A DNA stretch of 64,000 bases from Streptomyces sp. NBC_00513 (lineage in GTDB: Bacteria; Actinomycetota; Actinomycetes; Streptomycetales; Streptomycetaceae), in the NCBI RefSeq assembly GCF_041431415.1, contig NZ_CP107845.1:5952001-6016000 (forward strand). The letters are read 5' to 3'. Positions 40,585 to 44,148 of the stretch are shown here, piece by piece. The notes beneath the pieces are model-generated. The model searched no databases, was not told the origin of the DNA, and saw only the letters and a list, made by a program, of their open reading frames with translations. The position numbers were made by a program, and so were the translations under genes. Position 1 is the stretch's first letter. The number at the start of each line of letters is the position of its first letter.

Positions 40585-42228
40585 CTAGGTCGCGATCCGT
40601 GCCCGTGCCACGATCGAACCCAGATCCAGACTGTGCGGCAGCGTGCCGAACGCCGTGCCCCAGTCGCCGCCGAGCCGCGAGGCGCAGAACGCGTCCGCGA
40701 CCTCCGGCGGGGCCCACCGCACCAGCAGTGACCCCTGCAACACCAGTGCCATGCGCTCCACGACCCGGCGGGCCCGGGCCTCGATGCCCTCCAGGTCCGC
40801 GAGGTCGGTCAGCAGGTCCTTGACGGCGGCGTCCAGCCGGTGGTCGGCGCCCCGGGCCAGCCCGACCTCCCGCAGGAAGGCGTTCAGCGCCTGCGGTTCG
40901 CGTTGCAGTGCCCGCAGTACGTCCAGGGCCTGGACGTTGCCCGAGCCCTCCCAGATGGAGTTCAGCGGGGATTCGCGCAACAGTCGCGGCAGTCCGGACT
41001 CCTCGACGTAGCCGTTGCCCCCCAGACATTCGAGGGCCTCGGCGACCATCGGCGTACACCGCTTGGTCACCCAGTACTTCGCCGCGGGCACCGCGAGCCG
41101 CAGGAAGGCCTTCTCCTCGTCGGTGCCGGCGTCGTACGCGGCGGCGAGGCGCAGGGTGAGGACGGTGGCGGCCTCCGACTCCAGGGCCAGGTCGGCCAGC
41201 ACGTTGCGCATCAACGGCTGCTTGATGAGCGGTGCTCCGAAAGCAGAGCGGTGCTCCGTGTGGTGGAGGGCCTGGGTCAACGCCTGACGCATCAGCGAGG
41301 CCGAGCCGATCACGCAGTCCAGCCGGGTCGCCGCGACCATCTCGATGATGGTCCGCACCCCCCGGCCCTCCTCGCCCACCCGGCGGGCCCAGGTGCCGTC
41401 GAACTCGACCTCGCTCGACGCGTTCGACCTGTTCCCCAGCTTGTCCTTCAGCCGCTGGATCGCGAAGACGTTGCGGGTCCCGTCCGGCAGCACCCGCGGC
41501 ACCAGGAAGCAGGTGAGCCCGCCCGGCGCCTGCGCCAGCACCAGGAACCCGTCGCACATGGGAGCGGAACAGAACCATTTGTGCCCGGTCAGCAGGTACT
41601 CGCCGGAGGCGTCCAGCGGCACCGCCGCCGTCGTGTTCGCCCGTACGTCGCTGCCCCCCTGCTTCTCCGTCATCCCCATCCCGAAGAGCACGCCGCCCTT
41701 CTCCGCGGCCGGCCGCAGGCCCTGCTCGTACACGTGCGAGGTCAGCCGCGGCTCCCACTCGGCGGCCAGCTCCGGATCGGTGCGCAGCGCCGGCACCGCG
41801 GCGTGCGTCATCGACACCGGGCAGCCGTGCCCGGCCTCGGCCTGCGACCACAGGAAGAACCCGGCCGCCCGGCGCAGGTGCCCGGCCGGGCGTCCCCACG
41901 CGTCGGTCAGCCCGGAGGTCACCGCGTGCCCCAGCAGCCGGTGCCAGGCCGGGTGGAACTCCACCTCGTCGATGCGGTGCCCGTGCCGGTCGTGCGTGCG
42001 CAACTTCGGCGGGTTCTCGTTCGCCTGCGCACCCCAGTCCTGGGCCTGTCCCGAGCCCGCGGCCCGTCCGAGCGTGGTGAGCTCCTCCCGTACCTCGTCG
42101 CGCAGTTCGGGGGAGGCGTCGGCGAGGTGCCGCTCCACCCCCTCGGTGAGGGCCCGGTCGCCGGTGAACGCCTCGTAGCCCACAAGGGGCGGGGCCTGGT
42201 TGTTGACTGTGTGGGTGGTGGCTGCCAT
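40585..42228 (-). CDS. aidB: AidB-type acyl-CoA dehydrogenase family protein
   Basis: The 547-residue flavoprotein closely follows E. coli AidB along its length: HTVNNQAPPLVGYEAF at the N-terminus, GMGMTEKQGGSDVRANTT, GHKWFCSAPMCDGFLVLAQ, RLKDKLGNRSNASSEVEF and LLRESPLNSIWEGSGNVQ. AidB is an alkylation-response protein that binds DNA and FAD. ATG 42228 is supported by TACGGT exactly six bases upstream and no Shine-Dalgarno. It is divergent from the BrkB-family gene with only 17 bases between start codons. Confidence 0.93.
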   Translation of the reverse strand: MAATTHTVNNQAPPLVGYEAFTGDRALTEGVERHLADASPELRDEVREELTTLGRAAGSGQAQDWGAQANENPPKLRTHDRHGHRIDEVEFHPAWHRLLGHAVTSGLTDAWGRPAGHLRRAAGFFLWSQAEAGHGCPVSMTHAAVPALRTDPELAAEWEPRLTSHVYEQGLRPAAEKGGVLFGMGMTEKQGGSDVRANTTAAVPLDASGEYLLTGHKWFCSAPMCDGFLVLAQAPGGLTCFLVPRVLPDGTRNVFAIQRLKDKLGNRSNASSEVEFDGTWARRVGEEGRGVRTIIEMVAATRLDCVIGSASLMRQALTQALHHTEHRSAFGAPLIKQPLMRNVLADLALESEAATVLTLRLAAAYDAGTDEEKAFLRLAVPAAKYWVTKRCTPMVAEALECLGGNGYVEESGLPRLLRESPLNSIWEGSGNVQALDVLRALQREPQALNAFLREVGLARGADHRLDAAVKDLLTDLADLEGIEARARRVVERMALVLQGSLLVRWAPPEVADAFCASRLGGDWGTAFGTLPHSLDLGSIVARARIAT

Positions 42229-42233
42229 GCGGA

Positions 42234-42240
42234 TACCGTA
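42234..42240. promoter_or_regulatory. shared bidirectional -10 element
   Basis: The sequence TACCGTA reads TACCGT on the plus strand (42234-42239) and TACGGT on the minus strand (42240-42235). Each hexamer lies exactly six bases from the start codon it would serve (GTG 42246 plus, ATG 42228 minus). Each -35 region would fall inside the coding sequence of the opposite gene. I see no strong -35 in either direction. Confidence 0.6.
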
Positions 42241-42245
42241 AGGAC

Positions 42246-43361
42246 GTGCAGCCAGCAAAAGAAACACCCCAGCGGATCCCAGGGCGGCTCCACCGGGCCC
42301 GCGCCCTCTACCGCAACGTCTCCAAGCGCAAAATGGGCTGGCTGCTGCTCAAGGACACCGTCAACTCGTGCATCGAGTACCGGATCCTGGGTCTCGCGGC
42401 CGAGGCGGCGTTCTTCACCCTCCTCTCGCTCCCGCCGCTCTTCCTGGGCCTGCTGGGCCTGCTCGGCTACGTGGACGGCTGGACGGGCGGCACGTTCGTC
42501 GCCAGCATCGAGGAGAACATCCTGCGCGCGGTCGGCACGGTGCTCTCCGACCGGGGCGTCAACGACATCGCCAAACCCATGCTGGACGACGTGACCAGCC
42601 GCGGCCGACCGGACCTGATCTCCCTCGGTTTCGCCTTCGCCCTGTGGTCCGGTTCCCGGGCGGTCAACGTCTTCATCGACACCATCACCGTCATGTACGG
42701 CCTCGACGGTCAGCGCGGCATCGTCAAGACCCGACTGCTGGCCTTCCTGCTGTACGTCATCGCGCTGCTGATCGGTGCGGTCGTGCTGCCGCTGATGGTC
42801 GCCGGCCCGGACGCGGTGGTGAGCCTGCTGCCCTGGAGCACGGAGGTGATCGCGGTGCTCTACTGGCCCACGGTCACCCTTCTCTCCATCGCCTTCCTGA
42901 CCACGCTCTACCACGTGTCCGTGCCCGTGCGCTCGCCATGGATCGAGGACGTGCCGGGCGCCCTGGTGGCCCTGGCGATGTGGGTGCTCGGCTCGTTCCT
43001 GCTGCGGATCTACCTCACCAACACCGTGGAGGGGCCGACGATCTACGGTTCGCTGGCCGCGCCGGTCGCGATCCTGCTGTGGATCGGCATCTCGGCCTTC
43101 GCCGTGCTCGTCGGGGCCGCCGTCAACGCCGCCATCGACCGGGTCTGGCCGTCGGTGGCCACCGCCGCGGCCCGCGAGGCCAACGAGCGGGTACGGGAGG
43201 CGGAGGCGGCCCGGCTCATCGCCCGCGCCGCCGCCTGGCGGGCGCTGGCCGAGGGGGAGTCCGAGGACGACGAGGACGCGGGGATGCCCTCGGAGTTCCC
43301 CGAGCGCTGGTCGAGGTTCCTGCCGCCCGAGGACTACCACTCCCGGCTGCGCAAGCACTGA
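42246..43361 (+). CDS. YihY/BrkB family membrane protein
   Basis: The 371-residue integral membrane protein has about six helices and the YihY/BrkB hallmarks (LGLAAEAAFFTLLSLPPLFLG, ALWSGSRAVNVFIDTITVMYG, LTNTVEGPTIYGSLAAPVAI). The C-terminus (~residues 300-371) is cytoplasmic, acidic and helical. The family's function is not settled; the old RNase BN label is known to be wrong. TACCGT precedes the GTG by six bases, though an AAGGA in between could also act as a weak ribosome binding site. Confidence 0.92.
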   Translation: MQPAKETPQRIPGRLHRARALYRNVSKRKMGWLLLKDTVNSCIEYRILGLAAEAAFFTLLSLPPLFLGLLGLLGYVDGWTGGTFVASIEENILRAVGTVLSDRGVNDIAKPMLDDVTSRGRPDLISLGFAFALWSGSRAVNVFIDTITVMYGLDGQRGIVKTRLLAFLLYVIALLIGAVVLPLMVAGPDAVVSLLPWSTEVIAVLYWPTVTLLSIAFLTTLYHVSVPVRSPWIEDVPGALVALAMWVLGSFLLRIYLTNTVEGPTIYGSLAAPVAILLWIGISAFAVLVGAAVNAAIDRVWPSVATAAAREANERVREAEAARLIARAAAWRALAEGESEDDEDAGMPSEFPERWSRFLPPEDYHSRLRKH

Positions 43362-43434: not shown

Positions 43435-44148
43435 GTGTACGAGGAGCGACCTTCCCCGCTGGTGCCGGGCGCCGTGCTGTGGCGCTCCGACGGGCCCGGC
43501 GCCGTGGTGTTGCCCGACGGTTGCATGGACCTGCTGTGGACCGGCGGGCGGTTGCTGGTGGCCGGCCCGGACACCGGCCCGCACCCCGCCGGCGAGGTTC
43601 CGGGCGAGGACCTCGGCGGAACCCTCTGGGGGCTGCGGCTCGCCCCCGGCACGGCGCCCGCGCTCCTCGGCGTACCGGCGCACGAGCTGCGCGACCGGCG
43701 GGTGGACCTGGCCGGACTGTGGCCCGGCGCCGAGGTGCGCCGCCTCGCCGAGCGGACGGGCGCGTACCCGGACCCGCGCGACGGCCTGGACGAGCTGGCC
43801 CGGGCCCGCGCCGCCGCCGGCGGGCCGCCCGACCCGGTCGCCGTCGCGGTACGGGCCGGAGTGCGCAGCGGCCGGTCGGTGGCCGCCATCGCCCGGGACG
43901 TCGGGCTCGGGGAACGACAGCTGCACCGTCGCTCCCTCGACGCGTTCGGGTACGGCCCCCGCACCCTGGGGCGGGTCCTGCGGCTCCAACGGGCGCTGGC
44001 CCTGCTCCGCGCCGGGACCCCGCAGGCGGAGGTGGCGTACGCGGCGGGGTACGCCGACCAGGCCCACCTGGGCCGGGAGGTCCGCGCCCTGACCGGGCGC
44101 ACGCCCGGGGCCCACGCACCGCCCCCGGACCGGGCGCCGGGGGGCTGA
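43435..44148 (+). CDS. AraC-family transcriptional regulator
   Basis: The 237-residue protein has an N-terminal sensor region (VVLPDGCMDLLWTGGRLLVAGPD) and a C-terminal AraC DNA-binding domain (SVAAIARDVGLGERQLHRR, VAYAAGYADQAHLGREVRAL). The signal is unknown. The convergent VOC-family gene downstream is a possible target only by position. The GTG start has TAGCCT six bases upstream and no Shine-Dalgarno, so it is probably leaderless. Confidence 0.9.
   Translation: MYEERPSPLVPGAVLWRSDGPGAVVLPDGCMDLLWTGGRLLVAGPDTGPHPAGEVPGEDLGGTLWGLRLAPGTAPALLGVPAHELRDRRVDLAGLWPGAEVRRLAERTGAYPDPRDGLDELARARAAAGGPPDPVAVAVRAGVRSGRSVAAIARDVGLGERQLHRRSLDAFGYGPRTLGRVLRLQRALALLRAGTPQAEVAYAAGYADQAHLGREVRALTGRTPGAHAPPPDRAPGG

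Follow-up and report, generated by a model that had tools for sequence, protein, structure and literature searches.

A symmetric TANNNTA heptamer between divergent AidB-like and BrkB-family genes of Streptomyces as the probable -10 element of both

The intergenic region and its symmetric heptamer

In the 64,000-nucleotide window of Streptomyces sp. NBC_00513 analysed here, a gene for an AidB-like protein of the acyl-CoA dehydrogenase family (aidB; minus strand, positions 40585-42228, 547 amino acids (aa)) and a gene for a BrkB/YihY-family membrane protein (brkB; plus strand, 42246-43361, 371 aa) diverge from start codons that lie 17 nucleotides (nt) apart. We propose that this 17-nt region is very probably a minimal bidirectional promoter, in which a single TANNNTA heptamer would be the -10 element in both directions and would give leaderless messenger RNAs (mRNAs) for both genes. 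CAT at 42226-42228 is the ATG of aidB on the minus strand, GTG at 42246-42248 is the start codon of brkB, and the whole intergenic region (42229-42245) consists of 5 nt, the heptamer TACCGTA (42234-42240) and 5 nt. The proposed -10 hexamer of brkB is TACCGT (42234-42239, plus strand), 6 nt ahead of the GTG, and that of aidB is TACGGT (42235-42240, minus strand), 6 nt ahead of the ATG. An earlier note on this DNA had given these start codons, the 17-nt gap and the hexamers six bases from their own start codons, and all of this was correct on re-reading of the sequence. From the spacing of the -10 hexamers we infer transcription start sites (TSSs) at the G of the GTG (42246) and the A of the ATG (42228), exactly 18 bp apart, and with them leaderless translation. 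Leaderless genes have their TSS within about 0-9 nt of the start codon, a placement predicted here from the -10-to-start spacing.

RNA polymerase, probably with the main sigma factor, would read TANNNTA as a TANNNT -10 element on either strand. T1, A2 and T6 of the heptamer would be positions -12, -11 and -7 for brkB, and A7, T6 and A2 would be the same positions for aidB. The polymerase would bind in either of two orientations, each excluding the other, and transcription would begin about 6-7 nt downstream of the -10 element, at or beside the start codon, giving a leaderless mRNA for each gene. The earlier note had assumed one open complex. This was wrong, since the polymerase at bidirectional promoters is described as binding in one of two orientations (PMC12825309), so that two alternative open complexes would form here. 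Steric exclusion of this kind need not entail regulatory antagonism. In Escherichia coli, basal firing at five tested bidirectional promoters was reported to be too weak for the two directions to compete, and competition could arise on activation of one of them (PMC12825309). At the present locus, competition in the cell and any consequence for regulation are putative.

TANNNTA occurs once in the window, at 42234-42240, against 22.5 occurrences expected from base composition, which is an overestimate given the scarcity of TA in the window. The probability of TA...TA at a single fixed register is about 3.5e-4 with the base composition of the window. The pattern CATN5TANNNTAN5RTG and the wider CAYN5TANNNTAN5RTG were each found at one place in the 8.6-Mb genome, which is this locus. 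About 1.0 match to the former is expected by chance across the genome from base composition, so the pattern by itself is weak proof. What counts is where it lies, between the real starts of two divergent genes, and how it is conserved.

Conservation in fused loci

Eighty named Streptomyces loci were gathered via BrkB, and more loci came from further genomes at the level of genus, family and class. The 286 loci reduced to 236 unique ones, comprising 131 fused loci (start codons 17-19 nt apart), 58 split loci, 33 that have brkB without aidB and 14 that have aidB without brkB, presence being judged within the locus. The named set is weighted to near relatives, with BrkB up to 99% identical, and trees were built with FastTree. 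Three AidB genes were irregular: one has an internal TGA (G119 C443), one matches in two pieces (G290 C22) and one matches over residues 2-368 only (G339 C4).

TANNNTA was present in all 131 unique fused loci, of which 52 were named Streptomyces, 51 were others of the same family, 24 belonged to family f26 and four to family f9. The gap between the start codons was 17 nt in 82 of them and 18 nt in 48, and a single locus had 19 nt. Both start codons were those expected from homology in 95 of the 131, and TANNNTA was found in 95/95 of these. The brkB gene began with ATG in 24 fused loci, a number equal to that of the f26 loci, which are listed with ATG on both sides. Within its own family the fused state was read in ten of 17 genus codes, Streptomyces and nine others (g1, g2, g6-g9, g12, g13, g16 and g17), and is therefore probably old in the family; it is also present in two further families. 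In g3 a long distance separates the two genes, and the brkB loci read in g5, g14 and g15 (L189, L197-L199) have no aidB in the locus.

The conserved bases were exactly those needed for reading in both directions. Parsimony on the AidB tree of fused loci (122 rows, 86-bp window) gave 0 changes for T1, A2, T6 and A7 of the heptamer, 4, 14 and 2 changes for positions 3, 4 and 5, and 3 to 37 changes for each position outside the heptamer. Positions 1, 2, 6 and 7 were T, A, T and A in 100% of the 131 fused loci, and these four bases read as -12, -11 and -7 of TANNNT on both strands. The inner bases varied (TACCGTA, TACGGTA, TAACGTA, TACGTTA, TACTTTA, TAACTTA and TAGCGTA), so what these loci have in common is a two-way -10 element rather than a strict palindrome. 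The locus looks like an old bidirectional promoter under strict selection.

The -10 elements of separated and single genes

Relatives in which the two directions have been separated serve as natural experiments, and there each -10 element has mostly become one-sided. TANNNT stood 6-7 nt from the start codon in 89 of 91 non-fused brkB genes and in 58 of 72 non-fused aidB genes. The seventh base A, which serves the other direction, was found in just 14/90 brkB and 2/58 aidB hexamers of these loci. Two families make up most of the set, f1, to which the named Streptomyces belong, and f26; of their 55 non-fused aidB genes, 54 had TANNNT. The exception is L018, a close Streptomyces relative with a gap of 264 nt, where brkB has TACCGTA and aidB lacks TANNNT 5-8 nt from its start.

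In a large group of Streptomyces with split loci (e.g., L043, L064 from S. violaceoruber, and L070) the genes are still divergent and mostly 85-166 nt apart; the gap is 2,020 nt in L069, and L037, L044, L071 and L077 have no aidB in the locus. The brkB genes of this group carry TACCGT or TACCTT 6 nt before the GTG, followed by T, so that the minus-strand reading is gone. Their aidB genes have their own TAGGTT, TACTTT, TACGTT or TAAGTT, 6 or 7 nt before the ATG. Other lineages give a similar picture. L128-L131 are one-sided on the aidB side and still symmetric on the brkB side, both sides are one-sided in the far-separated genes of L190-L196, and in f26 loci L244, L245, L283 and L284, with brkB about 110 nt off or not found, the aidB hexamer stays while the T used by brkB only has changed.

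The earlier note had asked whether relatives keep the symmetry and spacing. Among the 236 unique loci, loss of the heptamer was confined to those in which the two genes stand apart or just one of them is present, and each gene there usually retained a one-sided TANNNT; this supports a shared -10 element. The note's proposal of one 7-bp element as the -10 of two leaderless-type genes thus has strong comparative support, with TANNNTA in every fused locus and mostly an own-direction TANNNT in unlinked genes. Whether symmetry follows architecture was also tested by counting independent pairs on the trees. On the AidB tree, symmetry tracked architecture in 7.4 of 8 pairs on average and was opposite in 0 (median p 0.0156).

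A -35 element was scored when at least 4 of the 5 letters of TGACC were found at N16-19, with expectations taken from shuffled sequences. By this measure, -35 elements were present in 20/45 split aidB genes (2.5 in shuffles), 4/13 aidB-only genes (0.8), 10/58 split brkB genes (3.2) and 1/32 brkB-only genes (1.8).

Evidence against a shared -10 element and alternative explanations

Several observations weigh against a -10 element shared by the two genes. The script that chose start codons favoured those with TANNNT upstream, a mild circularity. One side had 7 rather than 6 nt in 48 of the 131 fused loci, and the leader there could thus be 0 or 1 nt. In the fused loci, -35 elements were scored in 6/131 aidB genes (10.2 in shuffles) and 0/131 brkB genes (6.6 in shuffles); the fused promoter seems to work, if at all, from the common -10 element with little -35. 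On the BrkB tree, 5.2 of 12 pairs went the same way, 0 the opposite way and 6.8 showed no difference (median p 0.0625), which is not significant and makes this test for architecture-linked symmetry only suggestive. A7 was kept in 5/58 split and 9/32 brkB-only loci with a hexamer, and the symmetric heptamer was kept with aidB separated or absent from the locus in L018, L128-L131, L023, L187, L188, L197-L199, L208, L210 and L219. No TANNNT was found near the aidB start in 13/58 split and 1/14 aidB-only loci; 13 of these 14 genes lie outside the two main families and the other is L018. In L285 the aidB hexamer keeps A7 and no brkB was found in the locus, making it a true exception. The other unlinked aidB gene with A7, that of L226, appears to belong to a fused locus at the end of a contig, where an ATG follows its TACCGTA. 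An overlap between the contigs of L226 and L206, in family f8, was sought without success. L226 was excluded from the 131 fused loci; in the AidB-tree test it was labelled fused because of that ATG.

Three alternative explanations were considered. The heptamer might serve one gene only, probably brkB, and the other gene would then have a leader and a promoter inside its neighbour. Such an arrangement would fit the near-universal retention of the brkB hexamer (89/91 outside fused loci) and the 13 split aidB genes that lack TANNNT near the start. We consider it unlikely, because A7 and the hexamer on the aidB side do not vary across the 131 fused loci, because non-fused aidB genes of f1 and f26 keep TANNNT with L018 as the exception, often together with a -35 element, and because L244, L245, L283 and L284 of f26, though not L285, lose the base that only brkB needs and keep the aidB hexamer.

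It is very unlikely that TACCGTA is instead the binding palindrome of a regulator, an operator, with the true promoters elsewhere. TACSGTA, a palindrome about its centre base, makes up 107 of the 131 fused heptamers. However, the inner palindrome is broken in the remaining 24 with TANNNTA still kept, and a strict operator palindrome was rejected on account of these breaks. The invariant four bases are exactly -12, -11 and -7 on both strands, and what most separated genes retain is a one-sided TANNNT at 6-7 nt rather than a palindrome. Least credible, to the point of being extremely improbable, is a chance arrangement kept by shared ancestry with both genes served by distant promoters. The single match expected in the genome from base composition would allow it. 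Against it, the four positions show no change where flanking and inner positions of the same tree show 2-37, and the arrangement is found in three families.

Comparison with known promoters

The known bidirectional promoters share a symmetric -10 element, their divergent TSSs are most often 18 bp apart, and a T at -18 is reported to be helpful (PMC10268837, PMC12825309). The present region resembles those described by Warman, Grainger and colleagues in its reciprocal -7T/-11A within one -10 element, its predicted 18-bp TSS spacing, a predicted T at -18 in one direction and the lack of a clear -35 element (PMC10268837, PMC12825309). If transcription starts where predicted, the base pair at 42228, which is the first of the aidB start codon, would place a T at -18 for brkB. 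The corresponding T for the minus direction is absent because brkB begins with GTG, and its place likewise depends on the predicted start. In this class TSSs are 7-25 bp apart with 18 bp the commonest distance, and the 18 bp found here are predicted from the -10 spacing. The earlier note had called an element this compact, setting both start codons, unusual. Its predicted geometry is the 18-bp form that is commonest among known bidirectional promoters; start codons at both predicted starts and such deep conservation are unusual. Unlike in the known cases, both predicted starts here coincide with start codons, and the promoter core would consequently fill the intergenic region. The word "leaderless" is absent from the main text of PMC12825309.

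In Streptomyces coelicolor, a -10 TANNNT was reported at 80.4% of 3,570 TSSs and a -35 NTGACC at 58.6%, and 21.0% of primary TSSs were leaderless (PMC4895711). Compared with this consensus for promoters of the housekeeping sigma factor, TANNNT is present here and NTGACC is not (PMC4895711). As in actinomycete leaderless genes, a TANNNT -10 element would place the start site at the start codon (PMC4895711, PMC3848588, PMC8914203); unlike in those genes, the same hexamer bases are common to two divergent leaderless-type genes. Leaderless starts at GUG are known; in P. acnes they accounted for 29% of the leaderless starts (PMC3848588). The present arrangement was not found in a literature search on bidirectional promoters, on divergent pairs of leaderless genes, on AidB together with BrkB and on dapD/dapE, which is no proof of its absence, and AidB and BrkB were not found named together in the literature searched.

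Similar modules in other gene pairs

The module CAT-N5-TACSGTA-N5-RTG was searched for in 296 genomes of the class, with the reversed pattern as the control. It gave 59 matches in 42 genomes, at 44 distinct places, and the control gave 15 matches in 13 genomes. Sixteen of the 44 places were aidB/brkB, two were brkB with a decayed-looking aidB, six were dapD/dapE-like and two looked like one AI-2E-type pair; the remaining 18 are near the control level. The dapD/dapE-like genes are divergent with CAT-N5-TACCGTA-N5-GTG between them (L308, L310, L311, L313, L314 and L315; families f34 and f41). Both genes of L308 and L310 score above the NCBIfam cut-offs for dapD/dapE, and the other four loci were judged by their N-termini. 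In family f11 (L291 and L292), divergent open reading frames (ORFs) of about 340-400 aa with the TACSGTA module between them look like one pair of AI-2E-type transporters, and both L291 proteins match AI-2E transporter in Pfam. In L301 and L302, near position 1500, a 291-aa ORF at the place of brkB faces a 39-aa ORF resembling a decayed aidB N-terminus, with the symmetric heptamer intact.

These matches suggest that the module recurs and that dapD/dapE is a second conserved case of it. More tentatively, and we regard this as possible rather than probable, actinomycetes might use, as a recurrent kind of promoter, a zero-leader bidirectional module in which TANNNTA has 5-6 nt and then a start codon on either side, and which is selected because orientation competition at one -10 element ties the output or the noise of two genes, such as AidB-like/BrkB, DapD/DapE (lysine/diaminopimelate synthesis) and two AI-2E-type transporters. 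The pattern provides a sequence rule for finding further such pairs, and dapD/dapE is the first candidate. At the present locus a stretch of about 25 bp holds the proposed promoter core together with the predicted transcription start and the translation start of each gene, so that point changes could tell the two directions apart and show whether competition over polymerase orientation couples the genes.

Gene assignments and other sequence features

The minus-strand ORF at aidB extends to a GTG at 42267 (560 aa), and the ATG at 42228 gives the 547-aa protein. This protein matches AidB_N (PF18158, 9.6e-53, 178.9 bits versus a cut-off of 22.9) and acyl-CoA dehydrogenase domains in Pfam, and lies under the cut-off of the NCBIfam equivalog PRK11561 (521 versus 545 bits). 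The brkB product matches Virul_fac_BrkB (PF03631, 3.8e-43, 148.5 bits versus 33.7) in Pfam and lies under the cut-off of NCBIfam TIGR00765 (53.5 versus 73.15 bits). Pfam therefore places the two proteins with the AidB and YihY/BrkB families, and since the NCBIfam cut-offs are missed by both, the cautious names AidB-like and BrkB-family were used. A role of the AidB-like protein in the alkylation response is putative.

GTGGGT (42211-42216, plus strand), within the AidB-like coding sequence, occupies the -35 place of brkB with a 17-nt spacer and is a poor match to NTGACC. As a -35 element it was attractive by eye (GTGGGT/GTGAGT) and was rejected for want of NTGACC support in the fused loci (0/131). 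TTCTTT (42263-42258, minus strand), at the -35 place of aidB, is not NTGACC. An inverted repeat, TGGCTGC(N22)GCAGCCA (42219-42225/42248-42254), lies near-symmetrically round the heptamer; as a candidate operator it was set aside by eye, since its arms overlap the start codons and the earliest codons of each gene and differ between relatives. AAGGA, one base ahead of the brkB GTG, was judged by eye to be too close to the start for a Shine-Dalgarno sequence. Downstream of brkB, at 43435-44148 on the plus strand, is a gene for an AraC-type regulator with HTH_18 and DUF6597 matches in Pfam.

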